Assembly (NCBI GenBank): GCA_949299515.1
Contig: CASGAP010000008.1
Coordinates: forward strand, 1-64,000
Reading direction: 5' to 3'
Source: an uncultured Desulfovibrionaceae bacterium
Lineage (GTDB): Bacteria > Desulfobacterota > Desulfovibrionia > Desulfovibrionales > Desulfovibrionaceae
DNA length: 64,000 nt
Part shown: positions 8,354-25,535 of the stretch, piece after piece
How positions within the stretch are numbered: the stretch's first letter is position 1
How the letters are laid out: each line of letters starts with the position of its first letter
Notes under the pieces: model-generated
The model's database searches: none
What the model saw: only the letters and a program-made list of their open reading frames with translations
What the model was told of the DNA's origin: nothing
Program-made: the position numbers and the translations under genes

Positions 8354-9301
8354 TTATACTGCCGCCTTATCGACAAGGTATGCTTCACTGCCAAAACTGC
8401 GCACCCAGGCCATAACTTCGGGTTCGCTCTGCGAAACCAATATTATGGATACCGTGCCGTCCTCGTGTTCAAAAATTTCCTGCTGTTCGGACCAAATACG
8501 CTCTCTCACATAATCCGACACTTTTTTTGAATTGAATTTAATCACGTATTTTTTAGGCCTGTTCCAAAATAAGCCGAATAAATTCGCCGACTGCTCCGGC
8601 AAATCAAAATATATCCTGCCGCAATAGTCATGTAAAGTTTTAATTCTGTGCACGGCCAGAGAAGTTATATGCCGGACTTCGTTAGAATCTTTTTTTAATA
8701 TCGCGCCGATGCAGTAAAGAGCGCCGTTCATTGCCGCAAACTTTTTAGGTGCAAATTTATGCCGTTTTGTAAAGGGTTTTCCGATTGCCGAATATTCAAG
8801 CAAACAAATACCGTTTTCATCTATTAATGAGTACAGCCTGTCCAATATATCATAATGTTTGGAATAATCAATATAGCCTTTGGAATAAAAACTGATATGG
8901 CTTGCCGATTTATTTGTCAAAATATGCGGATCTTCCGATGCGGCCAGCGCCAAAGACAGCAAATGGGAATCTATCCGTTTTAACATCTGTTCGGGAAGAT
9001 AAGGCTTTGCCAAATCCTTGCATACGGCAATAAAGCGCAGTTCGTCGGAATCCAGATCCAATAAAAATTTATTTGAAGACTGCATACGATACCAGCGCCT
9101 GTTTTTATCCTTGCCGCTGATTAAATTTATACCAACCTCGCGTTCAATAACTTCGACCAAACGCATTACCGTTTGCGGAGAACAATTTAGATTGACTGCC
9201 AAATCAGACAAATAATGCTTGCGGTTTTCTGACAACAATTTTCGAAAAAGCTTTAGCACTTTTTCTCCGTGTGTTGCGTCACTGTCATATTTTTTGGGCA
9301 T
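8354..9301 (-). CDS. WYL-domain HTH transcriptional regulator
   Basis: About 315 residues from the ATG at 9301. An in-frame GTG at 9310 overlaps the ribosome site AAGGTGAG, so the ATG is preferred. Residues 1-65 form a winged-helix DNA-binding domain (KHYLSDLAVNLNCSPQTVMR). Residues about 135-215 form the WYL sensor domain (strands ICLLEYSAIGKP and KKFAAMNGALYCIG). The C-terminal WCX extension follows. WYL proteins bind ligands, often nucleic acids or nucleotides, and control defence or stress loci. Here the gene leads the envelope operon with an 11-base gap, so autoregulation of the whole unit is likely. A divergent HTH-only paralogue lies 230 bases away. Confidence 0.8.
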   Translation of the reverse strand: MPKKYDSDATHGEKVLKLFRKLLSENRKHYLSDLAVNLNCSPQTVMRLVEVIEREVGINLISGKDKNRRWYRMQSSNKFLLDLDSDELRFIAVCKDLAKPYLPEQMLKRIDSHLLSLALAASEDPHILTNKSASHISFYSKGYIDYSKHYDILDRLYSLIDENGICLLEYSAIGKPFTKRHKFAPKKFAAMNGALYCIGAILKKDSNEVRHITSLAVHRIKTLHDYCGRIYFDLPEQSANLFGLFWNRPKKYVIKFNSKKVSDYVRERIWSEQQEIFEHEDGTVSIILVSQSEPEVMAWVRSFGSEAYLVDKAAV

Positions 9302-9532
9302 TGTTCTCACCTTTTTTTAACTATTAATACACGCTATCCTTTCCAAAATGTGGAATTTTGAGCAACTTTATAAAAATTTTATGTTTTATAACTTAACTGT
9401 ATAAAATTGTAAAGATAAATCTATTTTTTATCCTATACACCAAATTAGTTTAATAAAAATTTTTCTTTCAAATTCCTTATAATGGAAAAACTTTAATATA
9501 TAGTCCAAATTAAATTCGTTTGTGAGTTATTT

Positions 9533-9793
9533 ATGGCAAAAAAATACGACAGTGATGCTACCAGCGGTGCTAAGTTGTTAAAACTGTACAGAAAACTAAC
9601 ATCAGAAAGAAAAAAACATTTTCTTTCCGATTTAGCAAAAGAGTTAAAATGCTCACCGCAAACCATTTTACGGCTCATCAATGTCATTGAAGCCGAAATC
9701 GGCATAAATTTATCTACCGGCAAAGAAGAAAACAAACGCTGGTATCAAATTAATTTTAATACTGTTTTAAACGATAACGAAAACCAAAAATAA
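9533..9793 (+). CDS. HTH-only paralogue of the WYL regulator
   Basis: 86 residues that align without gaps to the first ~70 residues of the neighbouring WYL regulator. Both begin KKYDSDAT, share LSDLA, CSPQT and GINL, and end the HTH with an N/K-R-W-Y motif. It stops at that point with no WYL or WCX domain. The start ATG at 9533 lies at a similar distance into the divergent intergenic region as the partner's. It is probably a partial duplication retained as a small DNA-binding protein. Competition with the full regulator for operators, or formation of mixed dimers, is inference. Confidence 0.65.
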   Translation: MAKKYDSDATSGAKLLKLYRKLTSERKKHFLSDLAKELKCSPQTILRLINVIEAEIGINLSTGKEENKRWYQINFNTVLNDNENQK

Positions 9794-9835
9794 TAAGCCC
9801 TTAGCAACATTACAAACTATATAAGCGAGGTCGTT

Positions 9836-10189
9836 ATGAAAAAATTAATTTGCGCAGCATTGCTTTCGGCTCTTATTTGCCCTCAGACCGTGAATGCGTT
9901 TGAGGCAAAAGATTTACCTGCCGGAAATATTGACATTACCGGAAAACCGGTAGGCTTCCGTTCGGAAGCGGGATACATTTACGGAATTGAAATAAAAGAT
10001 AATTTATATTTTGTCGGTATGCCCGGAAGCTTGCAGCCTCAGCTTTCAGACTGTTTTGACAAAGCCATGAGCGAAGAAAAAAACGTTCGGATTAAAGGCA
10101 AAATTATCATCGAAAAAATAAATCTCGGCGGCAAACCTCTTGAAAACAGGGAGTTTTCCAAAGATACCGTATGCACGCCTATAAAATAA
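9836..10189 (+). CDS. Small secreted protein of unknown function
   Basis: 117 residues with a signal peptide (MKKLICAALLSALICPQTVNA). The mature part is beta-rich and ends in a lone cysteine near the C-terminus, with a second at DCFDKA that could form a disulfide. The start has the ribosome site AGCGAGG. No domain is recognised. The Gly-rich strand order (IDITGKPVGFRS, then NVRIKGKIIIEK) would suit a small OB-like barrel, but this is a guess. It follows the HTH-only gene by 42 bases and may be co-transcribed with it. Confidence 0.55.
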   Translation: MKKLICAALLSALICPQTVNAFEAKDLPAGNIDITGKPVGFRSEAGYIYGIEIKDNLYFVGMPGSLQPQLSDCFDKAMSEEKNVRIKGKIIIEKINLGGKPLENREFSKDTVCTPIK

Positions 10190-10553
10190 AAATATTATTC
10201 AATCTTAGAATATTTCCCAACTTATCGGTATTAATTGCAGCACCTATAAAACCATCTGCAAAAATAATTTAATTTTAGTACCTATTATTAAGAAAAAGAT
10301 TTTCCGTCACGCTTATCCGCGGTATTTGCGGAGCTGAAACCGAAAAATCCGGCAACGTTCCGTAAATACCGTGCGATAAGTGAAACAGAGAAAAATTATT
10401 TTCCAAAAAATACGTCAGCGGCACACGCAGAATACAATGTCTGCATTGCGGAACATTTTTATTTTTTTGCGTTATTTCAATAAAATCCGCAAAAAACATC
10501 TTACCGCAAAAAAATCGTCTGCTGCACGGCAAAACAAACGTTACGGGTTAAAA
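10190..10553. other. Intergenic region with a long imperfect inverted repeat
   Basis: No convincing gene is seen. A long imperfect inverted repeat stands out: arms at about 10311-10331 and 10360-10380 (core GGTATTTGCGG against CCGTAAATACC, flanked by CTTATC and GATAAG) with a spacer of roughly 28 bases. Folded, it would give an ~20 bp stem with one bulge. It has no T-run, so it is not a classic terminator. It could be a structured RNA, a remnant of a small mobile element, or the 5' leader of the next gene. Confidence 0.45.
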
Positions 10554-10951
10554 ATGAGAGAAACTCCTTATGAAACTGCCATTGCTTTGGCAAAAATATC
10601 GGAAAAACTGCGGGACGCCCTTTTGGACGCGCATTACAATATTAAATTTTCTTTTTTGGGTTTACCGATTTATTCAAAAAACAAATTGCACACCCCATTA
10701 AAAATGCATCTGAAAAATTTCAGCATACTGACTTTTCTGTTTGCGGATTTTATTATTGTTACCACAGCATAACCGCAAAAGGAGCCATAATTGCCGTCAT
10801 ATATTGCTTAGCCTTTACTTTTGTAACATTGTTCGCTTCCTCCGCCGTATATGCGGCCATACCATATTTTTTGATTAACACCTGGCTGGGATTTTCTTTC
10901 GGATATGATTATTACAGAACCCATATACGAAAAATTAAATTTTGGATTTAA
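10554..10951 (+). pseudogene. Small membrane protein gene with a frameshift
   Basis: The frame from ATG 10554 gives a short soluble helix and then a hydrophobic stretch (FSILTFLFADFIIVTT) before TAA at 10770-10772. The frame one step back continues at once with a second hydrophobic stretch (IIAVIYCLAFTFVTLFASS) and ends at TAA 10949-10951 with a basic tail. Joining the two gives a coherent ~132-residue protein with two to three membrane segments, so loss of one base near 10768-10772 is likely. The ribosome site is weak. No family recognised. Confidence 0.45.
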
Positions 10952-10954
10952 TAA

Positions 10955-10982
10955 AACGCCGCGGAATTCTGCGGCTTTTTTA
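10955..10982 (+). terminator. Rho-independent terminator
   Basis: GCCGCGGAATTCTGCGGC forms a short GC-rich hairpin and is followed by six T residues. It closes the frameshifted small membrane protein gene four bases after its stop codon. Confidence 0.75.
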
Positions 10983-11030
10983 TGTGCCCTGCACCGAAAC
11001 GAAAAAAATACCCGATATTAATAGTACCGG

Positions 11031-11996
11031 TCAATGGGTTACCACATACTGCGTGGTATCCTGCAGCACAGACAATTTTTTCAGTTCAGAAACCGATATC
11101 CTGCTTTGAATTTCATAGGCGTGCGGCATAAGCCAATTGTCAGTGCTTTGACTTAGCCCCTGCCTGTTCAGTTCCATTCTGACTTCCCCGCACAGTGTTT
11201 CAATAAGCTCAAAAACACTGTCTATGCTTTGCGGCTGACTTAAAGCCGTTCTGCAGAGCTGTTCGACGGCGGCATAAACGGTACTGCCGAGAACAGGAAG
11301 CGCTTTTACGGCATGATGAGCCCATTTGTAATACGGCATATATGCTTTGTTCAGCAAAAAAGCCAAAGAAACCGCGGCATCGCAAAAACGGCTTACAGAA
11401 AAAAGAACCGCACCGTATTCATCGCGCTGCATCGACCGAAGTGCGTTATATTGCCCTGCCTGCCCCATAACCGCGCAGCGGGCCGCAATTTTTTTTAGGC
11501 GGACATCTTCAGGATAAAAATTCAGCAAATGCTGCCTCATTGCAGAAAAACGCCGCGTCTTATCCAAAAAAATTTTTCCGTTGGTGCAGACGGCCAAAAA
11601 ATGCTCGGGAATATTAATCCATTCCCACCACTCGGAAGGCATTTTGGACCGCCCGATAAAGTTTTCAAAAAAAGCCTCAAAAGAAAGAGGACCAAGCCTT
11701 CCCATGCGGAGATTTTTAAACATACGGACAGGATAATCCCTGTACAGTACAGGCAGACGTTCAATCAGCCGCTCGGCGCAAGCAAGCCGTGTTTCCCATT
11801 CACTGCGGGGCAGCCAAATACAAAACCCCGCACCGAAATCATGATCCCGGGAAAGGCCGTCATCAAAACCAAAACATTCCGACCCTTCGCCGACAAGCCC
11901 GAAAGCCGCAGTGTCAAGCAGCTCGGGAAAGTCCTTTTCAAAAAGGGGGACGGCAATTTCTTCAAAAAAACACTGCGACAGTTCCAGTCCTTTCAT
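11031..11996 (-). CDS. DUF4037 protein with a nucleotidyltransferase-like signature
   Basis: About 321 residues from the ATG at 11996. The frame extends upstream to a TTG, but the family typically begins MKGLELS-, as this ATG does. Residues 35-60 contain G-S-x11-D-H-D (GEGSECFGFDDGL then SRDHDFG), which matches the polymerase-beta nucleotidyltransferase pattern GS-x(9-13)-D-x-D. The rest is helical. DUF4037 proteins have no proven reaction. The gene ends a three-gene unit with DUF4125 and a TPR protein (gaps ~55 bases), an arrangement I recall from other Desulfovibrionaceae and Clostridia. Nucleotidyl transfer is inference from the motif. Confidence 0.7.
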   Translation of the reverse strand: MKGLELSQCFFEEIAVPLFEKDFPELLDTAAFGLVGEGSECFGFDDGLSRDHDFGAGFCIWLPRSEWETRLACAERLIERLPVLYRDYPVRMFKNLRMGRLGPLSFEAFFENFIGRSKMPSEWWEWINIPEHFLAVCTNGKIFLDKTRRFSAMRQHLLNFYPEDVRLKKIAARCAVMGQAGQYNALRSMQRDEYGAVLFSVSRFCDAAVSLAFLLNKAYMPYYKWAHHAVKALPVLGSTVYAAVEQLCRTALSQPQSIDSVFELIETLCGEVRMELNRQGLSQSTDNWLMPHAYEIQSRISVSELKKLSVLQDTTQYVVTH

Positions 11997-12677: not shown

Positions 12678-13496
12678 TTATCCCTTATGCTCTTTGGCCT
12701 GCAGGCAAACATCTTTATTGGCCGAAAACGCCCTAGCATTCTTTGAATTTTCAAGACCGAGTTCAGCATAAATGGAAAGCGCTTCATCAAAATTTCGGAC
12801 AGCTTCGTCAAAATTGCCATCACTTGCCAAAGCAGTGGCATAATTGCCCAGACAAAATGCGGTTTCACTGTGGACACCGAGAGTTCTTTTCCTGATATCA
12901 GCGGCTTGCGCATGATACTGCACGGCCTTTTTTGTTTCATTGAGATTTTCATAAATTCTGCCCAAATTATTGTAACAGGTTGACGCTCCGAAACTGTCTT
13001 CCCCCTGTTCGGACAAATACACGGACAGGGCTTCGCGGATTAAAGCTTCTGCTTCGCCGTACTGTGACAATTCATAATGGTACATGGATAAACTGACCAA
13101 AAAATCGGCTAATTTTAAAACCAGTTCCGGCTTGCCGTCAGAAATATTCTTTCTCAACACAGCAACCGCCTGTCCGCAGTATTTCAAGGCCGCGGCATAA
13201 TCTTTGCGGAATGAATACAGCAGTGAAAGGTTATGCAGTACCGAGGCCGAATGCACATGATTTTTGCCGAACAGTTTCTCAATGCATTCCAGCTGTTTTT
13301 CCCAAACCTCAACCAATCGGCCATAATCGGCTTTTTCCTTTAATATACTGCCGTATAAATCCAAAAGAAGAATATACCGGCCGGAAACCGGTGTATTGTT
13401 CAGTTCCCGGCGACAAAGCAGTTCTGCAGTTTCAACATTGCCGGATTCAAATTCATATTTAATAGTATTCAGCGTATTCCGAAAAGAAAGAGTCAC
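12678..13496 (-). CDS. Tetratricopeptide-repeat protein of the DUF4037/DUF4125 unit
   Basis: 272 residues starting with GTG at 13496 behind AAGGAG. It is made almost entirely of TPR-type helix pairs: SVLHNLSLLYSFRKDYAAAL, then CYNNLGRIYENLNETKKAVQ and FCLGNYATALASDGNFDEAV are three clear repeats of the kinesin-light-chain/TPR_12 type. There is no signal peptide, so it is cytoplasmic. TPR arrays bind peptide partners; being first gene of the unit, it probably scaffolds the DUF4125 and DUF4037 products. No enzyme domain is visible. Confidence 0.75.
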   Translation of the reverse strand: MTLSFRNTLNTIKYEFESGNVETAELLCRRELNNTPVSGRYILLLDLYGSILKEKADYGRLVEVWEKQLECIEKLFGKNHVHSASVLHNLSLLYSFRKDYAAALKYCGQAVAVLRKNISDGKPELVLKLADFLVSLSMYHYELSQYGEAEALIREALSVYLSEQGEDSFGASTCYNNLGRIYENLNETKKAVQYHAQAADIRKRTLGVHSETAFCLGNYATALASDGNFDEAVRNFDEALSIYAELGLENSKNARAFSANKDVCLQAKEHKG

Positions 13497-13698
13497 TCCC
13501 AGCTCCTTATAAAAAAATTAAAACAATCCGACTCAAAAAAATCGAAACTAAGGCTTCCCACCGTATCATATCCAGAAAAACCACCTGCTTTTTTCATATA
13601 ACAGCTATCTATTTAGGTTATATATGCAGTATTCGATTCCGCAAATACCGCAAATAAAAGCGGCGGAAAAATCTTTTTTCCAAATCAAAATAAATTAT

Positions 13699-13728
13699 TT
13701 TGATTGATATTTTTATAACTGTTATAAT
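13699..13728 (+). promoter_or_regulatory. Sigma-70-like promoter for a candidate small RNA
   Basis: TATAAT at 13723-13728 with TTTGAT at 13699-13704 gives an 18-base spacer. No gene follows on this strand before the hairpin terminator at 13823, so this promoter would drive a transcript of only about 120 bases. Confidence 0.4.
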
Positions 13729-13734
13729 CTATAA

Positions 13735-13856
13735 CATTAATTCAGAAACATACCCTAAACAAAAATGTTCTGATATCACGATGTCCATTGTCTTTAATCA
13801 CTGCACAACGCTCCCTGAACGCATAACGGGCCGATTTTTCGGTCCGTTATTCTTTT
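13735..13856 (+). ncRNA. Candidate small RNA between the TPR and TRAP genes
   Basis: A stretch of about 120 bases lies between a good -10 box and a strong hairpin (11 bp arms at 13823-13833 and 13840-13850) followed by TCTTTT. A 25-codon frame starting at 13780 runs through the hairpin but has no ribosome site, so a noncoding RNA is more likely. It lies directly beyond the 3' end of dctM on the opposite strand. No known RNA family is recognised. Confidence 0.35.
13823..13856 (+). terminator. Hairpin terminator of the candidate small RNA
   Basis: An 11 bp stem (ATAACGGGCCG with CGGTCCGTTAT, one G-T pair) with a six-base loop, followed by TCTTTT on the plus strand. Confidence 0.6.
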
Positions 13857-13870
13857 AGCCTTCAGCTTCC

Positions 13871-13900
13871 AAAAAAGCCCGTACTAAGTACGGGCTTTTT
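13871..13900. terminator. Bidirectional terminator after dctM
   Basis: AAAAAAGCCCGTAC and GTACGGGCTTTTT form a perfect stem with A and T runs on both sides. On the minus strand it closes the TRAP transporter operon about 20 bases after dctM; on the plus strand it is a second stop behind the small RNA candidate. Confidence 0.85.
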
Positions 13901-13922
13901 GCATATACAAATCAGACAGAAA

Positions 13923-15206
13923 TTATCTTAAGAGATTTACCAGGAAGAGCGAAATGGAAGGGCACAATGTTACAATCAATAACGTCAGTACCTGAACGCC
14001 CAAGAATACCCAACTTTCGCGCATGATATTTCCGATCTTTTCCTTGCAGATAGGTGCGGCAACCCAAAGCTGCGGCCCCATGGGAGGCGTAACTTCGCCG
14101 ATAATGGCGCAAAATACGGCAAGGGCCCCGTAAAGAGCCGGATCAATGCCCAAATCCAAGACACTGGGCAAAAATAACGGCAATACGATAACAACCATGG
14201 GAAAACTGGAAAAGAAAAAGCCCATTACCAAAAGCAAAGCCTGCACAGCTATAAGGAACGAAACCGGTCCGAGTTCCATATCAATAACAACTTGGGAAAT
14301 CATCTGCGGAACCCCGATATATCCCAAAACTCTGCCGAACAAATCACCGCCGATTACCAAGAAGTAAATCATGCTGCTCAGTCTTACAGTTTCAACAATG
14401 GAATTCATAAAAACTTCCATCGTAATTCCCTTATAAATAAAAATACCGATTATCAGGGAATAAAAACAAGCAACGGACGCGGCCTGAGTCGGGCTGAAAA
14501 TACCGGTATAAATACCCCCCAAAACAATTACCGGCATAAGCAGTATCGGAAACGCTTTTTTGAAAGCATCAATCTTTTCGGCTGCCGTGGCACGTGCTTC
14601 AGAGCGGTATCCGCGCTTTTTGGAAATAATAACAGAAGTTACGCACATCAAAAACGCAGCCAAAAGACCGGGGCCGACACCGGCAGCAAACAAATCAGAA
14701 ACAGAAACACGGTTGCTTGCGCCAAAAACAATCATAAAAACACTGGGAGGAATAACCGCACCCAATCCGGCAGAGGTAACGGCAAGCCCGGAAGCAAACG
14801 CTCTGGAATACCCGGAATTTGCCATCATGGGAACAAAAATGGTACCGATAATGGCAAGACAAGCGGTGGCGGAACCTGAAATTGAACCCAAAAACGCCGC
14901 AAAAACGCAAATGGCAACAGCCATGCCTCCCGGCAGATGTCCGACCATTCTATTCATGAAATCGCGCAAATTCGCCATACCGCCGCCCCAAAGTATCAGG
15001 TTGCCCGCCAGGATAAAAAACGGCATGGCAAGCATGGGGTATGAACTCATGGTCGTAAAAAACACCTGGGATACGTTTGCCAGCGGCATACTCATAGTAT
15101 GCAGCATAATGACAACGGAACCGATGCCGAAAGTCACAGAAAGCGGCGTGCCGAACAAAAACATAACTGCAATAGATGCAACAGCAATATAATCAACAAT
15201 ACCCAT
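13923..15206 (-). CDS. dctM: TRAP transporter large membrane subunit DctM
   Basis: 427 residues and strongly hydrophobic throughout, about 12 membrane helices, the usual size of DctM. Typical family motifs are present: the N-terminal LFGTPLSVTFGIG, the conserved GSISGSATA loop and the SAGLGAVIPPS loop, where the Pro-Pro-Ser is characteristic. DctM is the Na+-coupled translocation subunit in the inner membrane. It follows dctQ by 16 bases. Substrate follows from DctP and context; the adjoining SDR and glycyl radical enzyme point to a small hydroxylated or sulfonated organic acid, which is inference. Confidence 0.92.
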   Translation of the reverse strand: MGIVDYIAVASIAVMFLFGTPLSVTFGIGSVVIMLHTMSMPLANVSQVFFTTMSSYPMLAMPFFILAGNLILWGGGMANLRDFMNRMVGHLPGGMAVAICVFAAFLGSISGSATACLAIIGTIFVPMMANSGYSRAFASGLAVTSAGLGAVIPPSVFMIVFGASNRVSVSDLFAAGVGPGLLAAFLMCVTSVIISKKRGYRSEARATAAEKIDAFKKAFPILLMPVIVLGGIYTGIFSPTQAASVACFYSLIIGIFIYKGITMEVFMNSIVETVRLSSMIYFLVIGGDLFGRVLGYIGVPQMISQVVIDMELGPVSFLIAVQALLLVMGFFFSSFPMVVIVLPLFLPSVLDLGIDPALYGALAVFCAIIGEVTPPMGPQLWVAAPICKEKIGNIMRESWVFLGVQVLTLLIVTLCPSISLFLVNLLR

Positions 15207-15222
15207 TTGTCACCTCATCAGA

Positions 15223-15729
15223 CTAATCATGCTTTTGTTCGGTTTTTCCGGTAATAACACGATACAGCTGTATAACCGCAAACAAAGTAAACAGAAACAT
15301 TCCGATAGGAATACAGCTTTCAACGATCCAGCGCGGCACGGATACAACACGCACGATATTCATATTGAATTTGTAATACTGACTTATGACAAGATAGCCG
15401 CCGCTGGTAATAAGCACGCCAAAAGCAATGCAGATAAGCAAATTTATTGATTCCAGAATTTTTCTGGGTACGCCTGTCAGCTTATCGCGGATCATATCAA
15501 CGGATACATGGTCGCCGTCGGGCAAAATAGGCCCGGCAAGCATCATTACAGACCAAATAGTAAACCATACGGGCAAATCATACATTAAATCCACGGAAAA
15601 ATTAAACAATGATCTGCAAATAATTTCAAAAAAGTTAATGCTTACACCCAAAAAGAACACCAAAGCCCAAAACTTATACCAAAAGGATTTGAATTTTTTC
15701 AAGAATGTTTTTTCTTCAGAAGGATCCAT
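15223..15729 (-). CDS. dctQ: TRAP transporter small membrane subunit DctQ
   Basis: 168 residues with four predicted membrane helices (about 20-40, 52-70, 92-115 and 138-158), the DctQ layout. The conserved E-I-I-C-R-S-L-F in helix 1 and the WFTIWSVMMLAGP stretch in helix 2 fit the family. It associates with DctM in the inner membrane and helps recruit the loaded DctP. It lies between dctP and dctM, with a stem-loop separating it from dctP. Confidence 0.9.
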   Translation of the reverse strand: MDPSEEKTFLKKFKSFWYKFWALVFFLGVSINFFEIICRSLFNFSVDLMYDLPVWFTIWSVMMLAGPILPDGDHVSVDMIRDKLTGVPRKILESINLLICIAFGVLITSGGYLVISQYYKFNMNIVRVVSVPRWIVESCIPIGMFLFTLFAVIQLYRVITGKTEQKHD

Positions 15730-15780: not shown

Positions 15781-16803
15781 TTATCGGGTTCGATAAATTG
15801 CATCAAGCAGCTTCGGATCGACAGTCTGGAGCAAATCGGCATTTGCTTCTTCCAACAGCTTGTTCCACTTTTCAAGTTCTTCGGGGCTGAATCTGATTAC
15901 ATCGCCTTTCGGGTTTTCGTCCCACCATTCAACAATGGCAGCTTCGTTGTTGTCGAAATAATCCTGGCAGTCGGTTACGTTTATCACATATTCTATGGCC
16001 TCTCTTTCGTTTTCAGGCAAAGAATCCCACCATGCGCTGTTTACGACCAAAGCCAGCGGCATCGGGCCAAAATGATGAGAAATCACATATTTGCAGCTTC
16101 TAGGCATATCATAATATTCATATGCAAAAATATTGTCGATATGACCGTCAATCATGTTGGTCTGCAGACTGGAAACAACTTCGGAATAGGGCATTGCCAC
16201 GCCGATAATGCCAAGTTTTTTAAACGCATTGCCGAATGTTTGCTGACCGGCATAACGAATCTTTACGCCTTCAAGGTCTTCAACTTTATTAATGGGGCCC
16301 TTATTGGTATAAATAAAGAAGTTGCCCATAGTGGAAGGCCATTTCAAAATACGGAAACCTTTTGTTTTTGCAAGTTCATCTTGTTTTGCTTTCCATTCCG
16401 GCGTATCCATGACACGAAGAAAATGGTTCATATCTTTAATAATGCCGGGAACAAGCAAAACACGCCATTCGGGATCAAACTGTTCAATAAAGTACGGAGT
16501 AGTGCAGGCAAATTGTCCGGCGCCCATGGCTACGGCATTCAATGCGTCGTCATGGGATTTATATACGTCGCCTACCCAGCGCGTAGAATATTTGCCGCGC
16601 AGCGCCGGCATATTTTTCATATGGAAATCAAGAACACCGCAATAAACACCCAGCATTTGGCCTTCAGGATATGTCAAGGCTGAAGTAAGCGGGTCCGGGA
16701 AAATAAATTTTACTTCCTGGGACGCACTGGCCATTCCTGTTGAAAACATTGCCATACCGGCAATTGTCAATGCCATCATCGCTTTTTTAAGAATTTTTTT
16801 CAT
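15781..16803 (-). CDS. dctP: TRAP transporter periplasmic binding protein DctP
   Basis: 340 residues. A signal peptide ends near MASA (about residue 27), then a two-lobed binding domain. The DctP hallmark lies near residues 170-180: LEGVKIRYAGQQTFGNAFKK, where the Arg of KIR-x-A contacts the carboxylate (or sulfonate) of the ligand in studied members. It is followed by GVAMPYSEVVSSLQTNMIDG, also typical. The start has the ribosome site CAGGAGC. It has its own promoter, separate from the SDR gene upstream. The exact ligand cannot be read. Confidence 0.9.
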   Translation of the reverse strand: MKKILKKAMMALTIAGMAMFSTGMASASQEVKFIFPDPLTSALTYPEGQMLGVYCGVLDFHMKNMPALRGKYSTRWVGDVYKSHDDALNAVAMGAGQFACTTPYFIEQFDPEWRVLLVPGIIKDMNHFLRVMDTPEWKAKQDELAKTKGFRILKWPSTMGNFFIYTNKGPINKVEDLEGVKIRYAGQQTFGNAFKKLGIIGVAMPYSEVVSSLQTNMIDGHIDNIFAYEYYDMPRSCKYVISHHFGPMPLALVVNSAWWDSLPENEREAIEYVINVTDCQDYFDNNEAAIVEWWDENPKGDVIRFSPEELEKWNKLLEEANADLLQTVDPKLLDAIYRTR

Positions 16804-16915: not shown

Positions 16916-17737
16916 CTACTTTTTATCAGACCCATCTACAACAAGAGCATCAAATTCTTCTCTGTGCCTGTCGCGCAGAGCATACAGTTTTGCCAGCTCA
17001 ACGGACGCCCTTCTTTCAACGTCGCTCGCGCATTCAAGCAAAACATCCATGACCCTTACGGACGGACTCATGGACAAAAGCCAGCGCACTGTTTTGGCAA
17101 TATCTTCGGGCTGTATCATCAGCCCCGGAGGCATTGAGCCGCCTTCCCCGGAAGCCATTTCCGTATTCACCCAGCCCGGACAAATGGTCGTTATGCTGAT
17201 ATTTTGTGCGGAAAATTCACGGTACAGCGATTCATCAAGACCAATCAGCCCAAATTTTGAAGCAGAATATCCGCCGAGCCCGGAAACAGCCACTTTGCCG
17301 TTTCTGGAAGCCATATTGATAATTCTGCCTCCGCCCTGTTTTACCATGGCGGGGATTATAGCTTTCATAAATAAAAACGGTGCACGCAAATTGACTGCAA
17401 ACAATTTGCTGAACGTTTCCGAATCCTGATCAAGAGTGCCTGGAATGCTGATGCCTGCACCATTAAACAGCAAGTCGATTTTGCCAAATTTTGAGACAAT
17501 ATGGTTTGCGGCTTCTATTACAGCCTTTTCATCGGACAAATCAACATCAACAAGCTGAGGCTGCCGTTCTTCAGGTATTGCGTGAATTTTCACAAACTCA
17601 TTTTTGGCTGCTTCAAGATTTTTTAAGCTGCGGGCAACCAAAATTACCTGGTATCCGCACTCAATAAGCTCATGTGCCACAGCCTTGCCGATGCCTCTGC
17701 TGCCGCCTGTTACCACTGCAATTTTATTAGCACTCAT
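16916..17737 (-). CDS. Short-chain dehydrogenase/reductase (SDR)
   Basis: 273 residues from the ATG at 17737; a GTG just before it lies too close to the AGGAG site. Classical SDR features are in order: cofactor motif TGGSRGIG (residues 9-16), NGAG near 91-94, catalytic Ser in MASRNGK, and YSASK with the catalytic Tyr/Lys near residues 157-161. It would oxidise an alcohol or reduce a carbonyl with NAD(P). The residues after the first beta strand do not clearly decide NAD from NADP. The gene has a promoter-operator nearly identical to that of the glycyl radical genes, so it probably acts on a substrate or product of that enzyme. Sulfoacetaldehyde reductase of the IsfD type is also an SDR, but assignment is not possible. 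Confidence 0.85.
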   Translation of the reverse strand: MSANKIAVVTGGSRGIGKAVAHELIECGYQVILVARSLKNLEAAKNEFVKIHAIPEERQPQLVDVDLSDEKAVIEAANHIVSKFGKIDLLFNGAGISIPGTLDQDSETFSKLFAVNLRAPFLFMKAIIPAMVKQGGGRIINMASRNGKVAVSGLGGYSASKFGLIGLDESLYREFSAQNISITTICPGWVNTEMASGEGGSMPPGLMIQPEDIAKTVRWLLSMSPSVRVMDVLLECASDVERRASVELAKLYALRDRHREEFDALVVDGSDKK

Positions 17738-17827
17738 CACAAACTCCTCTGACTTCTTTCAGGAAGGTTATCTGTTCAACTTTATTCAAATAAATCCTAT
17801 TTGAAATCCGGTGCCGCAACATTTCAC

Positions 17828-18139: not shown

Positions 18140-18913
18140 CTAAAAAATTTTCAGTTCCAAAAATCCCAGTACTTCTTCTTCTGCTTCGCGGAGCAGCGGA
18201 ACGGCATCATTATAAAATTTTGTAGCATCGCCAAAAATTGTGCGCGTCAGACTCAGCGCATAGATTACCGGACTGGAATCCATGATAATCGGAATGCCCA
18301 CGCCCTTCAATCCCACGCAAAGCTCATCGTTCATAATGGAATACCCGCGCTTTTTGGTTTCCGCTATTTCTTCCAAAAACCTGTCGGCGCTTGTGGTGGT
18401 GGGAGTAAACTGTTCAAAAACGGTTTTTTCCATATACTGCTTCAGTTCGCTTTCGGAAAACTGTGACAAAACGGCCTTTCCCAATGCAGAACAATATGCC
18501 GGAACGTGTCCGCCTTCGGCAAATTGACTGTATGTGGAATTATTGTTTTGTGCCAAGTACGTGATATCTGTCCCGTTCCACATACCAAGGTTGCTGATAA
18601 TATCGGCAGGTGCATGAAATTTTTCCGTAATCGAATTTAAAATTTCTACAAAAATATTATGGAGCTCGATTTTGGGAATAATGCCGTTGCCCAGCTTATT
18701 TATTCTGTCAGTCAAAACATAATTGTTGGAATTATCCTGATAAACATAGCCGTGAAGCCTGAAAGTATTTAAAAAACGGTAACTGGCACTTTTCTGCATT
18801 TTTAAACTTTTAGCCATATTGGTAACAGTAACGCTTTTATGTTCTACCAAATATTCAAGTACCTGTATTCCTTTGCTGAGAGTCTGCAAATATGCTGGCT
18901 GCTTTTTTTTCAT
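18140..18913 (-). CDS. IclR-family transcriptional regulator
   Basis: 257 residues. The N-terminal winged helix (residues 8-65) reads LSKGIQVLEYLVEHKSVTVT and then a recognition region with SASYRFLNTF. The C-terminal IclR ligand domain (80-250) has YCSALGKAVLS and GLKGVGIPI, both typical, and a conserved Cys near residue 196 (NDELCVGLKG) that lines the effector site. IclR proteins control catabolic operons in response to a small organic effector. It sits between the SDR/TRAP arm and the GRE arm, which share an operator-like block, so it is the probable regulator of both. Confidence 0.9.
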   Translation of the reverse strand: MKKKQPAYLQTLSKGIQVLEYLVEHKSVTVTNMAKSLKMQKSASYRFLNTFRLHGYVYQDNSNNYVLTDRINKLGNGIIPKIELHNIFVEILNSITEKFHAPADIISNLGMWNGTDITYLAQNNNSTYSQFAEGGHVPAYCSALGKAVLSQFSESELKQYMEKTVFEQFTPTTTSADRFLEEIAETKKRGYSIMNDELCVGLKGVGIPIIMDSSPVIYALSLTRTIFGDATKFYNDAVPLLREAEEEVLGFLELKIF

Positions 18914-19069: not shown

Positions 19070-19993
19070 ATGAAAGCAATCATTGAAAATATTCAGCATT
19101 TCAGCCTTCATGATGGTCCGGGAACAAGAACAACAATATTCTTTAAAGGCTGTCCTTTAAAATGTCTGTGGTGTTCCAATCCGACAACCCAAAATATAAA
19201 AAAAGAACTGATATATAAAAAAACCAGCTGTGTCCGCTGCGGACGGTGCATCACAGTATGCAGACAGAATGCCCTTTCCATGAAACAGGAAGGAGATGAA
19301 CAGTTTGTCTTTATTGACAGAAATTCCTGCATAACCTGCGGGGAATGCGCTGACCAATGTCCAGCAGACGCCCTTCAGACAATCGGCAGCGAATATGATT
19401 TGGATACTGTTTTCAATATAATAAAAAAAGATATTTTATTTTACCAAAACACAAACGGAGGCGTAACGTTTTCCGGCGGAGAAATGCTCCTGCATCACAA
19501 ATTTGTCAGCGAACTGATAAAAAAATGCAAAACCATCAATATCCATACCGCTGCGGAAACCTCCGGATTTGCTCCCTATGAACACGTAAAAGAAGTTCTC
19601 TCCCAACTGGATATGTGCTTTTTTGACATCAAACACATCAATAACGAAAAACATAAACAAATAACGGGACAGCCCAATACGCTGATCATCGAAAATCTGA
19701 CGCGGATACTGCAAGAAACCACAACCCCGATCACCATTCGTCTGCCATTAATACCCACCATAAACGACGACGAAGAACATTTGGCTGCGTATGCAGACTT
19801 TCTGAACAACCTGCCCAGACACGTGACATTTGAAATTTTACCCTATCACCGGCTGGGCAGCAATAAATACGACATGATGCAAATTAATTACAAATTGGAC
19901 AAAATAGCTCCTTTCTCCAAAGAAGAATTAAGTCAAAAGGTTCAATTTGTAAGAGAAAAATTAAATTCTATTAAATTAATATGCCAGTTTTAG
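19070..19993 (+). CDS. Glycyl radical enzyme activating protein (radical SAM)
   Basis: 307 residues. It uses S-adenosylmethionine and an iron-sulfur cluster to abstract hydrogen from the glycine of its partner enzyme. The radical SAM cluster site is Cys28-x3-Cys32-x2-Cys35 (CPLKCLWC), preceded by the DGPGTR motif of activases. Two ferredoxin-type 4Cys sets follow at 54/57/60/64 and 87/90/93/97, the arrangement found in activases of eliminases and decarboxylases rather than in pyruvate formate-lyase activase. GGE near residues 140-142 binds SAM in family members. The ribosome site is CAGGAG. It is first in the operon, 19 bases before the GRE gene, so the pair is surely functional together. Confidence 0.93.
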   Translation: MKAIIENIQHFSLHDGPGTRTTIFFKGCPLKCLWCSNPTTQNIKKELIYKKTSCVRCGRCITVCRQNALSMKQEGDEQFVFIDRNSCITCGECADQCPADALQTIGSEYDLDTVFNIIKKDILFYQNTNGGVTFSGGEMLLHHKFVSELIKKCKTINIHTAAETSGFAPYEHVKEVLSQLDMCFFDIKHINNEKHKQITGQPNTLIIENLTRILQETTTPITIRLPLIPTINDDEEHLAAYADFLNNLPRHVTFEILPYHRLGSNKYDMMQINYKLDKIAPFSKEELSQKVQFVREKLNSIKLICQF

Positions 19994-20012: not shown

Positions 20013-22391
20013 ATGAGCCATTTACCTGATTTAAAAAACAGAATCCAGTTCCTGAAAAACCAGTTCTTTACCCATAAACCAAGCGTCTGCATTGAAGGTG
20101 CCATTTCCAAAACCCGCATTTTTAAAGAAAGCGAAGGCGAATCCATGATTATCCGCCGGGCAAAAGCCTTCAGGGAACACTGCCTCACCAAAACCATAAC
20201 CATTCAGCCCAGAGAACTCATTGTCGGCAATGCCGGCGCAGTGGCACGCTCTATTCATGTTTGCCCGGAACTTTCCAACAACTGGATTATCGACGAGCTT
20301 GACACCATGAGCACCCGCCCTCAGGACCCGTATCAGATCACCGAAGAACAAAAAAGAATATACAGGGAAGAAATTTATCCGTATTGGAAAGGAAAAACCC
20401 TCCGCGACTATTGGAATGCCTTGGCTCCGAAAGACGTGTTTGAAATTGTTTCCGTAGGCGGCGTCATTGACAACGACGTAAAAATCGAATGCACGCCCGG
20501 CGACATGGTTCCCGCATTCCCGCAGATCATTCTGCCGTACGGCTTTGTCGGCATTAAAGAAATGGCAGAAAAGCGATTAAACGAACTTGATTTCAATGAT
20601 ATTACCAACTTTGAAAAAGCCGAATTCTGGCGTTCAGTCATAATCTGCTGCGAAGGCTTTATTGCCTTGGCCAAACGCCATGCGGACGAAGCCAGAAGAC
20701 TGCTTGACGGTGCGGACGAAGAAAGAGCCGCCGACCTGAAAAAAATTGCTGAAACCTGCGACAGGCTTGCCGTCGGTGCTCCGAAAACCTTTATGGACGC
20801 CGTTCAAACCGTTTATTTTGTTTTTGTCGGCCTCTTTATCGAAGGCAATGCAGGCGGCTACTCTCCGGGACTTTTGGACCAGTATCTCCTCCCCTTCTAC
20901 CAATATGAAAAAGAGCAGGGAACATCTGACGAAGAATTGCTTGAAATTATTGAAAGTTTCTATGTAAAAACCGGTGAACAGATTTGGTATTGGAATGAAG
21001 CTGCGGCAAAGCACTATTCCGGCTTCTGCGCATTCCAGAATATTGCCGTCGGCGGCGTTGACAAATACGGCAACGATGCGGTCAACCCGCTCAGCTATCT
21101 GCTTTTGCAGGCAGCTATTGACGTGCAGATGGTTCAGCCCTCCATTTCTGTAAGAATCAGCAAGAAAAATCCTGAAGAATTTTTCCTGAAAATTGCCGAA
21201 CTTGTTCAGACTGGTTCCGGCTTCCCGGCTATTTTCAACGACGAAGTCGGTTATAAAATGCTCCTCAAAAAAGGCATTCCAGCCCACATGGCCAGGGATT
21301 GGGCTCCTATCGGCTGCGTGGAAGCACAGCTTGCGGGCAGACATTTCCAATGGAGCTCCGCAGGGCACTACAACCTCGGCAGTGCCGTCGAATTTGCCCT
21401 GACAAACGGCATTCATTTAAAATCAGGCAAACAGCTTGGCCTGAAAACAGGCGATGCCTCCCAATTCAAAACTGCAGAAGAATTTGAAAATGCCGTATAT
21501 GCACAGGTACAGCATCTGCTCAAAAAATTCTCCACTTCCCAAAACACCCTCGAATATCTGCACTATAACTATCTGCCGGTTCCCGTTGCTTCCATGTTCA
21601 CCGTCAACTGCCTTGAAAAAGGACAGGATTTAAGCCACGGCGGCGCCGAATTCAATACCGGACCGGGCATGAACGGCAACGGCGTTGCGGACTTTGTTGA
21701 CTCCATTGCCGCAGTAAGACAAGTTATTTTCCGTGACAAAGCCTTTACCATGAAAGACCTTACCGAAGCTATTAAAAATGACTTCGTCGGTTATGAAACA
21801 CTGCAAAAGAAACTGCTTGCGGCACCCAAATGGGGCAACAACGACGACAGGGCAGACCTTATCATTTCCGAACTGACCGAACACATCATCAAAGAAGCAG
21901 ACAGCTACAGAGGTATGCTCGGAAATAAAAAACTTCCTGCCCTTTACCCGGTTTCATCAAACGTTCCCCAGGGTATGTCCGTGGCTGCGCTTCCTTCCGG
22001 AAGACACGCATGGAAACCGCTTGCCGACGGCTGCTCACCTTCACAGGGACAAGACAAGCTCGGCCCCACTGCCATACTGCAGTCTTTAAGCAAACTGCCC
22101 CACGAATGCATTGACGGTGGCACGCTGCTCAACATAAAATTAACCCCGGCTATTGTCAGCGGAGCAGAAGGAAGAAGCAGACTTTCAACTTTCATCAAAA
22201 CCTTTATTGACCTCAACGTCTTCCATGTACAGTTCAACGTTGTAAACCATGCGGTTCTCAGACAGGCCCAAATCCACCCGGAAGAGTATAAAAGCCTGCT
22301 CGTGCGCGTTGCCGGTTACAGCGCATACTTTGTAGAACTGAGCAAAGACATTCAGGAAGACATTTTAAGCAGAACAGCCCATGAACTGTAA
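20013..22391 (+). CDS. Glycyl radical enzyme of unknown substrate (compact eliminase class)
   Basis: 792 residues, full length. The thiyl residue is Cys435 in IGCVE with Glu437; the radical Gly768 lies in RVAGYSAYF near the C-terminus. The conserved FPAIFNDEVGY precedes the active Cys. Length and spacing resemble glycerol dehydratase (787) and 4-hydroxyproline dehydratase (789) more than isethionate sulfite-lyase or choline lyase (~830-850). Yet residue 164, in PGDMVPAF, is Asp where the two dehydratases have His, and SPGLLDQYL replaces the usual S-x-G-R-x-DQY. It probably catalyses a C-O, C-S or C-N elimination in the cytoplasm. The island has no aldehyde dehydrogenase, microcompartment genes, proC or dsr genes to name the product. 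Residue comparisons are from memory. Confidence 0.85.
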   Translation: MSHLPDLKNRIQFLKNQFFTHKPSVCIEGAISKTRIFKESEGESMIIRRAKAFREHCLTKTITIQPRELIVGNAGAVARSIHVCPELSNNWIIDELDTMSTRPQDPYQITEEQKRIYREEIYPYWKGKTLRDYWNALAPKDVFEIVSVGGVIDNDVKIECTPGDMVPAFPQIILPYGFVGIKEMAEKRLNELDFNDITNFEKAEFWRSVIICCEGFIALAKRHADEARRLLDGADEERAADLKKIAETCDRLAVGAPKTFMDAVQTVYFVFVGLFIEGNAGGYSPGLLDQYLLPFYQYEKEQGTSDEELLEIIESFYVKTGEQIWYWNEAAAKHYSGFCAFQNIAVGGVDKYGNDAVNPLSYLLLQAAIDVQMVQPSISVRISKKNPEEFFLKIAELVQTGSGFPAIFNDEVGYKMLLKKGIPAHMARDWAPIGCVEAQLAGRHFQWSSAGHYNLGSAVEFALTNGIHLKSGKQLGLKTGDASQFKTAEEFENAVYAQVQHLLKKFSTSQNTLEYLHYNYLPVPVASMFTVNCLEKGQDLSHGGAEFNTGPGMNGNGVADFVDSIAAVRQVIFRDKAFTMKDLTEAIKNDFVGYETLQKKLLAAPKWGNNDDRADLIISELTEHIIKEADSYRGMLGNKKLPALYPVSSNVPQGMSVAALPSGRHAWKPLADGCSPSQGQDKLGPTAILQSLSKLPHECIDGGTLLNIKLTPAIVSGAEGRSRLSTFIKTFIDLNVFHVQFNVVNHAVLRQAQIHPEEYKSLLVRVAGYSAYFVELSKDIQEDILSRTAHEL

Positions 22392-22406: not shown

Positions 22407-22769
22407 ATGAACAAAACCCTTGTTGTGTATGATCCCAAAAACGCCGTTGAAGAAATCGAAAAAGAAGTTGACGCACAATTTGTAGTAAAAGGAAAACCCA
22501 AAACCCATTTATGGAAATGCTTTATCAGCGACGATAAAAAAATTCACTCGGGATTTTGGTCCTGCCAAGGCGGCGCCTTTGTCATTCCCTCCCACACTTC
22601 AAACGAAATGTGTACAATTCTTGAAGGCGAGGCCATAGTGGAAATGGAAGACGGAACAACGTTCCATATCAAAGCAGGCGATACCATTTTCATACCGTTT
22701 GGCATAAAAAACACTTGGTATGTCGAAAACTACGTACGAAAAAGTTACGTGTGCAACATTCCTCAATAA
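22407..22769 (+). CDS. Cupin-domain protein
   Basis: 120 residues forming a single small beta barrel. Cupin motif 1 is degenerate (PSHTSNEMCTILEGEAIVEM, with one His and one Glu), and motif 2 is GDTIFIPFGIKNTW with no His. The pattern is of the DUF861/EutQ-like cupin type, with W-x-C at WSCQGG. It lies 15 bases after the GRE and before a stem-loop. Possible roles are an isomerase or lyase acting on the substrate, or a sugar or acid sensor. Metal binding is doubtful because two of the four usual ligands are missing. Confidence 0.75.
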   Translation: MNKTLVVYDPKNAVEEIEKEVDAQFVVKGKPKTHLWKCFISDDKKIHSGFWSCQGGAFVIPSHTSNEMCTILEGEAIVEMEDGTTFHIKAGDTIFIPFGIKNTWYVENYVRKSYVCNIPQ

Positions 22770-22828: not shown

Positions 22829-23851
22829 ATGAAAAAACTTTTATCCTTTGCTTTAGCATTATTTTTATTATTATCAGCCGCACCGGCACACAGTTTTGCT
22901 GCAGACGGCATTAAAACCGCATGGCTCGGCGAATTGGAAACTCTGGCCTGCTGGAACGCTCACCAAAACAAAATGGATAAAGACCTTGTTTTCGGCATGA
23001 CACTTTATCCGACCGGCAAAAGACTTGCCGACAGCTACAACAGCTGGGACGTTGCGGCCTGCGGATTATTTCCCGCTTTTGACGCAATTATAAAAAATGA
23101 AGCGGTAATAATAGGTCTGGGCACAGACGAAACCGTCGGCAACACTCTTTTTGCCAAACAAGACAGCAATATTTTGACGGCAAAAGGCATCAATGCCGAA
23201 TATCCGGAAGTTTTCGGCTCACCCGAAACAGTCAGAGGAAAAACCATTCTCTGCACATTCAACAGCAATGCCCATATGCTTGTTCTTACCTGGCTCAACA
23301 TTATCGGCCTGTCCGATCAAGACGTGCGTCTTGTTGACGTGAAACCGGAAGAAGCTTTTTCCGCTTTCAAAAACGGTATGGGAGATATTTTGGCTTTGTG
23401 GGCTCCGGACACATACCTTGCGCTGGACAATAATTTTGTGCCGATTGCCGAAGCCAAAAACTGCAAAATAAATTTCCTTACCGTTCTGCTTGCCAATAAA
23501 GTTTTCTATGAGCAGCATCCGGAAAAAGTCAAAGAATTTCTCGCCATTTATTATGAAAATGCAGAACTGCTCAACAAAATGGAACAAGCAGAACTGGCGG
23601 AACTTTACAGCAACTTCCTTTGGAGCTTCGCCAATACGGACCTGTCTGCCGAAGATGCGCAAAAAATTACCCAATGCCAAAAAATTTTCACAAAATCCGA
23701 AATTATTAACTTTTTAAACGACGAACAAAATTCCTTTATTTCAAAAAATATTAAAAACGCCGCGGAATATTACTGCCAATTCAATGCTGTTTCCCGCGCA
23801 GACAAAGAATATCTTTTGGAACTTTCTTATTTTAAAAACTTGCTGCAGTAG
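22829..23851 (+). CDS. NMT1/TauA-like periplasmic binding protein
   Basis: 340 residues with a signal peptide cut near SFA-A (residue 24). The fold order resembles the SsuA/TauA/NMT1 group: a GMTLYPTGKRLADS strand-helix, YNSWDVAACG, then VRGKTILC (the usual G-K-x-I/V) and ALWAPDTYLAL near residue 190. These proteins bind sulfonates, nitrate or pyrimidine precursors. No ABC permease or ATPase gene follows; the gene ends in a terminator. It may deliver ligand to a transporter encoded elsewhere, or work as the sensory partner of a kinase. Its place at the end of the GRE operon hints that the ligand is related to the GRE substrate (inference). Confidence 0.75.
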   Translation: MKKLLSFALALFLLLSAAPAHSFAADGIKTAWLGELETLACWNAHQNKMDKDLVFGMTLYPTGKRLADSYNSWDVAACGLFPAFDAIIKNEAVIIGLGTDETVGNTLFAKQDSNILTAKGINAEYPEVFGSPETVRGKTILCTFNSNAHMLVLTWLNIIGLSDQDVRLVDVKPEEAFSAFKNGMGDILALWAPDTYLALDNNFVPIAEAKNCKINFLTVLLANKVFYEQHPEKVKEFLAIYYENAELLNKMEQAELAELYSNFLWSFANTDLSAEDAQKITQCQKIFTKSEIINFLNDEQNSFISKNIKNAAEYYCQFNAVSRADKEYLLELSYFKNLLQ

Positions 23852-24050: not shown

Positions 24051-25535
24051 ATGTGTAAAGAAAAAATGATAAAAAATATTCCTCCCGCCGGAAAAATGGA
24101 CGATTTTATGCGCAGCGTAAGCCAAGACATAGAAGATTCCGCCAAACAAGACTTTATAGACAACTTTTCCGCCGAAAACATAAAAAAACTTGTTGCGCAG
24201 CGCATACATGACTACGGCGGAGACTTCAAGAAAAAAACCGCTTCCGGCGAGTATCAGTGGGTCGGCGTGCGCCTGCTTTTTGACGAATCGCTGTACAGCG
24301 ACGAAGCCGTGCTGTGCTTCCGCTCCATTGACGAAGAAAAACAAGCGCAGCTCCAACAGCTGGATTTGCTGAAAACATCGCTTGACAACGCCCGCCAAAG
24401 CGAACAGGCAAGAAATATGTTTTTCTCCAGTATGTCCCATGATATGCGCACACCGCTCAACGTCATTATCGGCCTGTCCGATCTTGCGAAAAACCATATC
24501 AACGATCCCGGAAAAACAGAAGAATATCTCAAAAAAATCACAATTTCCAGCAAGCATCTGCTTGACCTGATCAACGACATTCTCGAAATCTCGCGCCTTG
24601 AACAGGGCAAAATGAACGTGGAGAAAAAACAAATCAACCTGAAAACCTGCATAGAAGAAAGCGCAGCGCTCTTTCAGACCAAAGCATCACAGGAAGGAAA
24701 AATTTTCATTGTTGATTTGGAAATACAGGACTATTTTGTTTTCAGCGATCCTTTCAGGCTGAATCAAATCCTCAACAACCTGCTTTCCAACGCCTTCAAA
24801 TTCACCAAAGAAGGCGATAAAATCATTCTCAAAACCAAACAGCTCGATCAGGGAAATTTTGCCAAATACAAATTTGAAATATCCGATACCGGAATAGGCA
24901 TAAGCAAAGAGTTCTTGGAAAAGCTTTTTATTCCTTACGAACGCGAAACACGCTTCGGTACCAAAAACATTCAGGGGACAGGTCTCGGAACAGCCATAGT
25001 CAAAAACATCATTTCCCATTTGGGCGGTGAAATCCGCGTAACGAGCGAGCTGGGCAAAGGAACGGCATTTACCGTAACCCTGCTTTTTGAAACCGCAAAA
25101 CAGCAGCCGTTAGAAAGCAAAAACGAAGAAACGCCGCTGCAGCAAAAAAACCTCAAAGGTAAACGGGTTTTGCTTGCGGAAGACAATGCCGTCAATATGG
25201 AAATTGCCGGAGAACTCCTTTCCATGTGCGACATGGAAGTAACCAAAGCTTGGGACGGTCAGGAAGCATTGGAACTTTTCAAAAATTCCCCGCCTCATTA
25301 CTTTGACATACTTTTGCTGGATATGCAGATGCCAAGAATGGGAGGCTGCGACGCGGCAAAAGCCATTCGCCTGCTGGAACGCGAAGATGCCAAAAGCGTT
25401 CCCATCATAGCGGTAACAGCCAATGCTTTTGCCGAAGACTTTGCGGCAACCTCTGCTGCAGGCATGAACGCCCACGTTTCCAAGCCCATTGACTTTGCCC
25501 TGCTTTGCAAAACCATGCTGGAACTGCTCCCGTAA
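24051..25535 (+). CDS. Hybrid histidine kinase/response regulator without membrane segments
   Basis: 494 residues. Residues 1-110 look like the end of a PAS fold (GEYQWVGVRLLFDE) and a coiled coil. The HisKA domain has the phosphoacceptor His130 in SHDMRTPLN. The HATPase domain has the N, G1 (DTGIGIS) and G2 (GTGLGTAI) boxes. The C-terminal receiver has the acidic pair ED in LLAEDNAVN and phospho-acceptor Asp424 in LLLDMQMPRM, with the conserved Lys in VSKPID. A stop codon lies directly before this ATG and the ribosome site is poor; ATG 24066 is an alternative. With no membrane segment it may be a cytosolic kinase or a 5'-truncated remnant of a larger sensor. No separate output regulator is adjacent. 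Confidence 0.85.
   Translation: MCKEKMIKNIPPAGKMDDFMRSVSQDIEDSAKQDFIDNFSAENIKKLVAQRIHDYGGDFKKKTASGEYQWVGVRLLFDESLYSDEAVLCFRSIDEEKQAQLQQLDLLKTSLDNARQSEQARNMFFSSMSHDMRTPLNVIIGLSDLAKNHINDPGKTEEYLKKITISSKHLLDLINDILEISRLEQGKMNVEKKQINLKTCIEESAALFQTKASQEGKIFIVDLEIQDYFVFSDPFRLNQILNNLLSNAFKFTKEGDKIILKTKQLDQGNFAKYKFEISDTGIGISKEFLEKLFIPYERETRFGTKNIQGTGLGTAIVKNIISHLGGEIRVTSELGKGTAFTVTLLFETAKQQPLESKNEETPLQQKNLKGKRVLLAEDNAVNMEIAGELLSMCDMEVTKAWDGQEALELFKNSPPHYFDILLLDMQMPRMGGCDAAKAIRLLEREDAKSVPIIAVTANAFAEDFAATSAAGMNAHVSKPIDFALLCKTMLELLP

Follow-up and report, generated by a model that had tools for sequence, protein, structure and literature searches.

What does a glycyl radical enzyme (GRE) of the eliminase class act on when it carries an aspartate at the position that is histidine in the glycerol and hydroxyproline dehydratases? 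The question is raised by a locus in the 64,000-nucleotide stretch of Desulfovibrionaceae DNA analysed here (the window), and it matters because GREs govern the use of choline, hydroxyproline and sulfonates by oxygen-free gut bacteria, with links to trimethylamine and hydrogen sulfide. Reading the frame from the ATG at 20013 (codons 160 TGC, 162 CCC, 163 GGC, 164 GAC, 165 ATG and 166 GTT) bears out the initial annotation in placing Asp164 within PGDMVP, and also in its observation of SPGLLDQ where SxGRxDQ is expected, since the beta2 motif reads GGYSPGLLDQ with Leu287 encoded by CTT. Profiles, alignment and the AF2 fold (pTM 0.91) agree that all features of an eliminase-class GRE are present, namely a PFL-like barrel, an RVAGY glycyl-radical domain, a CXE motif and a dedicated activase (Table 1); the CVE and RVAGYSA motifs are intact. 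This is the one PFL-like gene detected in the source genome (1.76 Mb, 91% complete).

Table 1. Genes of the locus, and residues of the GRE, with their positions in the window.
Feature	Coordinates	Strand	Evidence or remark
DctM, TRAP large permease	13923..15206	-	TIGR00786 349 bits, over cut-off
DctQ, TRAP small permease	15223..15729	-	PF04290
DctP, TRAP substrate-binding protein	15781..16803	-	PF03480, alignments
SDR (short-chain dehydrogenase/reductase)	16916..17740	-	PF00106 1e-51
IclR-family regulator, divergent	18140..18913	-	PF01614, PF09339
Radical-SAM GRE-activating enzyme	19070..19993	+	TIGR02494 341.6 bits, cut-off 174.35
GRE, eliminase type, 792 aa	20013..22391	+	PF02901 623 bits, PF01228 107 bits; AF2 pLDDT 89.2
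Cys160 (TGC)	20490..20492	+	aligned with anion-side Arg: IslA Arg189, HypD Arg156
PGDMVP stretch of beta1, residues 162-167	20496..20513	+	
Asp164 codon GAC, shared beta1 substrate-contact site	20502..20504	+	
Leu287 (CTT) in SPGLLDQ, Arg position of SxGRxDQ	20871..20873	+	
Tyr335, site of CutC Phe389 / HypD Ser334	21015..21017	+	
Cys435-Val436-Glu437, CXE motif: thiyl-radical cysteine and base	21315..21323	+	
Ser448 to His452 (beta6), site of CutC Thr502 to Tyr506	21354..21368	+	
Gly768, glycyl-radical site in RVAGYSA	22314..22316	+	
Small cupin (Cupin_3, EutQ-like)	22407..22769	+	PF05899 6e-17; present in complete ortholog loci
SsuA/TauA/NMT1-like periplasmic binding protein, function unsure	22829..23851	+	TIGR01728 47.5 bits vs cut-off 163.5; PF09084 1.4e-5

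In phmmer and MAFFT alignments Asp164 stands opposite His164 of B12-independent glycerol dehydratase (GD), His160 of HypD, Gln193 of IslA and Asp216 of CutC (HypD His160 is chain residue 180, owing to a 20-residue tag, and CutC Asp216 is residue 170 of the printed chain, an offset of 46 confirmed by Cys489, Glu491 and Thr502). These four residues have been named as one shared substrate-contact site (PMC8473560), and the aspartate that the initial annotation mentioned among the substrate contacts of choline lyase lies at exactly this site. No histidine of the window enzyme aligns there; His452 lines the pocket elsewhere, at the beta6 site of CutC Tyr506 and HypD Tyr450. Across about 60 GREs, mostly from Desulfobacterota together with PDB entries, the residue is histidine in GD, 1,2-propanediol dehydratase, HypD, PflD and their relatives, glutamine in the C-S lyases IslA and HpsG and their relatives (asparagine in the divergent L010), aspartate in CutC and the orthologs of the window enzyme, and glutamate in 8iof, 8id1, the paralogs L052 and L053, L066, L067 and L015. 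By their structure titles, 8iof and 8id1 are the N-methyl-cis-4-hydroxy-D-proline and N-methyl-cis-4-hydroxy-L-proline dehydratases; we found no paper in the open literature on 8ID1 or 8IOF, on N-methylhydroxyproline GREs or on GD His164. The residue at this site follows substrate class, and the general eliminase histidine that had been supposed does not exist. The accompanying statement that this histidine takes the leaving hydroxyl was loose as well: His160 of HypD is essential, and is proposed to tune Glu436 and to help position the hydroxyl, but the proposed acid protonating the leaving group is Asp278 (PMC7077986).

Orthologs of the window enzyme are 74-90% identical to it, all carry Asp164 and Leu287, and they were found only in Desulfovibrionaceae, in 11 of 288 genomes of the family (E < 1e-200) spread over four genera; among 395 genomes of the phylum, no match outside the family was closer than 42%. 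Asp164 is kept in every ortholog, in one of them through the synonymous codon GAT, so it is neither chance nor sequencing noise, although 461 of the 792 columns are invariant within this set and conservation among orthologs alone is therefore weak evidence. Across the wider family, no column of the 792 but 164 holds a single residue class in the acidic branch, another in the histidine branch and a third in the glutamine branch, in a comparison whose groups were defined after the tree was seen. When column 164 is removed from the alignment, the maximum-likelihood tree separates the acidic state (Asp or Glu) from the others by one change, and the acidic branch has an SH-aLRT of 96 (by the quick method, with the IslA group as root), or 69 when L015 is left out. 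L015 (1501-3825) is itself an unusual GRE, with Cys-Val-Val in place of CXE and glutamate at site 164. In the tree the window enzyme stands nearest to the N-methylhydroxyproline enzymes 8iof and 8id1 (SH-aLRT 87), but its nearest kin may instead be CutC (p-AU 0.15). Asp164 therefore puts the window enzyme on the amine branch, with a state already seen in CutC, and the best reading of these sequences is that it probably represents an uncharacterised subfamily within that branch, beside CutC and the N-methyl-4-hydroxyproline dehydratases.

Our essential contention, to which we would give a probability of roughly 0.6, is that the window enzyme is a glycyl radical eliminase of the amine branch whose Asp164 binds a positively charged amine, probably a methylated one. 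Where an acidic residue occupies this site in a solved relative, the substrate is a methylated amine (choline for CutC, N-methyl-cis-4-hydroxyproline for 8iof and 8id1), and Asp216 of CutC reportedly stabilises the trimethylammonium group and, together with Glu491, the cationic substrate and intermediates (PMC12451663). Alternatively, the aspartate could do the work of histidine in relaying protons with Glu437, the enzyme being a dehydratase of an uncharged polyol with no amine involved. In HypD the corresponding site neighbours the CXE glutamate, which His160 is proposed to tune (PMC7077986), and for CutC an acidic relay Glu491-Thr502-Asp216 has been put forward as well, a path that QM/MM disfavoured (PMC12451663). 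We think this unlikely: the sampled solved eliminases of uncharged or phosphorylated polyols (GD, 1,2-propanediol dehydratase and PflD) all have histidine, and grouping the window enzyme with the histidine dehydratases is disfavoured (p-AU 0.02).

The rest of the pocket departs from the histidine enzymes as well. GD (1r8w) shares the fold, the CXE motif and 38% identity in a structural alignment, but the residues that we take to form its active site (His164, His281, Ser282 and Asp447) are all changed, to Asp164, Gly281, Gly282 and Ser449, so that membership of the GD family can be rejected. HypD (6vxc) has the same fold, CXE motif and glycyl loop; its His160, Asp278, Ser334, Asp339, Tyr450 and Thr645 are replaced by Asp164, Gly281, Tyr335, Ala340, His452 and Val647, and the score with the family model falls well under its cut-off (NF043068, 560.3 bits against 1100), so that membership of the HypD family was rejected too. 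The conclusion of the initial annotation that the substrate differs from glycerol and hydroxyproline is well supported, but SPGLLDQ cannot be used as part of its argument. Position 287 is arginine in nearly all other sampled GREs and leucine is confined to this ortholog group; the Glu164 paralogs keep the arginine, and Leu287 is therefore not readable as part of a substrate switch.

Of the characterised GREs, CutC and the N-methylhydroxyproline enzymes come closest in structure, CutC (Z 48-51) and 8iof (Z 49.7) being tied as nearest to the AF2 model. It deserves consideration that the window enzyme may be no more than a diverged CutC with choline as its substrate: CutC structures (5fau, 9ht9) head the fold list at a Z of about 50, and the two enzymes share the beta1 aspartate, the CXE cysteine and glutamate, the glycine motif, Phe341 (CutC Phe395), the QWxS motif after the cysteine loop, and a serine (Ser448) for Thr502. 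Overall identity is 37%, however, and six pocket residues are changed, with Val156, Gly281, Tyr335, His452, Tyr645 and Val647 aligned to CutC Tyr208, Thr334, Phe389, Tyr506, Leu698 and Ile700; the residues that surround the trimethylammonium in CutC (Tyr208, Phe389 and Tyr506) are all among those changed, the match of Tyr208 to Val156 being unsure because beta1 of the model is irregular near residues 155-164 (pLDDT block means 83-86). The window enzyme also differs in having leucine for the SxGRxDQ arginine and in its TRAP, SDR and IclR locus. The CutC model gives 691.9 bits against a cut-off of 1050 (TIGR04394), and in the genome G104 an ortholog of the window enzyme occurs alongside a true CutC (1630 bits). 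Profile score, residues and coexistence together make the enzyme distinct from CutC, and choline lyase is a barely credible reading. Comparison with 8iof and 8id1, the best phmmer matches at 39% identity, likewise finds an acidic residue at site 164, but it is glutamate as against Asp164, preceded by arginine rather than Cys160 four residues earlier, and His452 is replaced by aspartate or glutamate. Judged by the glutamate and arginine, a putative hallmark that we drew from these two sequences, the window enzyme does not classify as an N-methyl-cis-4-hydroxyproline dehydratase.

An enzyme found in Desulfovibrionaceae might instead be a sulfonate lyase that liberates sulfite for respiration from an amino- or hydroxy-sulfonate, which it would bind in a new way. 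IslA and HpsG (7kq3, 5ymr, 6lon) share its fold and often occur in this family, and the one cultured, presumed close relative respires taurine. The adjoining binding protein is SsuA/TauA-like, a locus that we call L062 pairs such a protein and ATPase and permease genes with a relative of the GRE at 58-59% identity, and TRAP proteins can carry isethionate (PMC11668362). The pocket speaks against it. Where IslA contacts the sulfonate through Arg189, Gln193 and Arg678, the window enzyme has Cys160, Asp164 and Ala643, and the IslA variants R189E, Q193A and R678E are inactive; Asp164 would repel a sulfonate unless an amine were present. The site of Cys160 is also arginine in 8iof and 8id1. The score with the model for (2S)-3-sulfopropanediol dehydratase/HpsG falls under its cut-off (NF048011, 602.6 bits against 1000), and membership of the IslA and HpsG families was rejected. 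The SsuA-like protein has a taurine-binding protein as its best PDB relative (E 4e-6) and is present in most ortholog loci, but its match is so far under the family cut-off that we do not claim a sulfonate ligand from it.

Physiology points the same way. The nearest relative of the window enzyme (90% identical) is the sole GRE detected in G003, which is probably Taurinivorans muris. Taurine is served by Xsc, whose model was matched in all six genomes of the genus and over the cut-off in five, in keeping with the published taurine route of T. muris. This species is without islAB, and isethionate, DHPS and cysteate each failed to support its growth, which disfavours these three compounds as substrates if G003 is indeed T. 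muris. Taken with the pocket, this makes a sulfonate lyase quite unlikely. On the amine reading, the subfamily would point to an unassigned route of amine catabolism among gut bacteria that produce sulfide, this cultured mouse species probably being one of them. Alignment column 164, being histidine, glutamine or an acidic residue by branch, would help to predict the kind of substrate that a GRE of unknown function uses.

The genes around the enzyme recur in the related loci, which come from four genera of Desulfovibrionaceae, as a set of IclR, cupin, SDR, activase, GRE, DctP, DctQ and DctM, some parts being missing from truncated contigs. If Asp164 does bind an amine, a TRAP transporter is an unusual importer for a plain quaternary amine, and this counts against that reading, as does the replacement of CutC Tyr208, Tyr506, Leu698 and Ile700. 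The two arginines of TRAP proteins bind carboxylates or sulfonates (PMC11668362); DctP of the window keeps one of them (Arg183) and has Phe162, surrounded by aromatics, in place of the other. Transporter and single canonical arginine suggest that the substrate carries an acidic group too, yet of the anion-binding arginine sites of known GREs that were tested the window enzyme keeps none. Aromatic residues (NFFIYT and variants) are conserved at the first carboxylate-binding arginine of DctP, where they could accommodate a ligand that is less acidic or quaternary; the PDB relatives of the protein are too distant to name one (best 68 bits). The best PDB relatives of the SDR are uncharacterised, and the SDR itself is weakly similar to 3-hydroxybutyrate dehydrogenase models. 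A hybrid histidine kinase with a receiver domain (24051-25535) lies directly after the SsuA-like protein, and the two may form a sensing pair.

Most likely, then, the substrate is a cationic, probably methylated, hydroxylated compound; its being an amine, its contact with Asp164 and the type of reaction we infer. The locus would form a catabolic unit regulated by IclR, into which the TRAP transporter would import the substrate. The activase would place the radical on Gly768, from which it would pass to Cys435, and the thiyl would abstract hydrogen from the hydroxyl-bearing carbon, or from the carbon beside the nitrogen. With Glu437 accepting the hydroxyl proton, the neighbouring amine or hydroxyl would depart to leave a carbonyl compound, on which the SDR may act, unless it makes the hydroxylated substrate. 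Asp164 would not be the acceptor of a leaving hydroxyl but, like CutC Asp216, would pair with the cationic, probably N-methylated, nitrogen, and it may be part of a proton network with Glu437. Of carnitine, betonicine and cysteinolate, which we weighed as possible substrates, the evidence singles out none, and we claim none. A new GRE reaction on a zwitterionic methylated amine imported by the TRAP system, such as cleavage of carnitine to trimethylamine and acetoacetate followed by SDR reduction, or else a desulfonation driven by an adjacent amine in place of a hydroxyl, seems improbable.

Relatives with Glu164 are found in several other settings. L052 and L053 are 56-59% identical to the window enzyme and L066 and L067 41-42%. 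Close to L067 (41%; L076, 1507-12789) are the OpuAC, ATPase and permease genes of an ABC transporter of the betaine type, two genes of the choline/ethanolamine-kinase family and a transaldolase-like gene. This context favours the amine reading, but it is the sole other locus of the acidic branch with a quaternary-amine context, which counts against it. L066 (42%) adjoins hydantoinase and AOR genes, and on L075 (3-12200) a Glu164 GRE lies near hydantoinase A/B, aldehyde ferredoxin oxidoreductase and SDR genes. In two genomes the ortholog is joined by another GRE, with Glu164: in G104 it lies in the same operon, and in G017 on another contig, accompanied by SsuA-like, ATPase and permease genes. 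L064 has two GREs of the subfamily in one operon (8958-11315 and 12839-15190), one Asp164/Leu287 and the other Glu164/Arg287, and L007 has the same operon; the pair perhaps acts on two stereoisomers or on related substrates. The Glu164 GRE of L062 (45-8994) has as neighbours an IclR regulator, an SsuA-like protein and two each of ABC ATPases and permeases; this arrangement hints that the SsuA-like protein in the window, now an orphan, was once part of an ABC importer. Finally, three GREs and two activases lie adjacent on an 11 kb Spirochaetes contig (L009, 693-10893).
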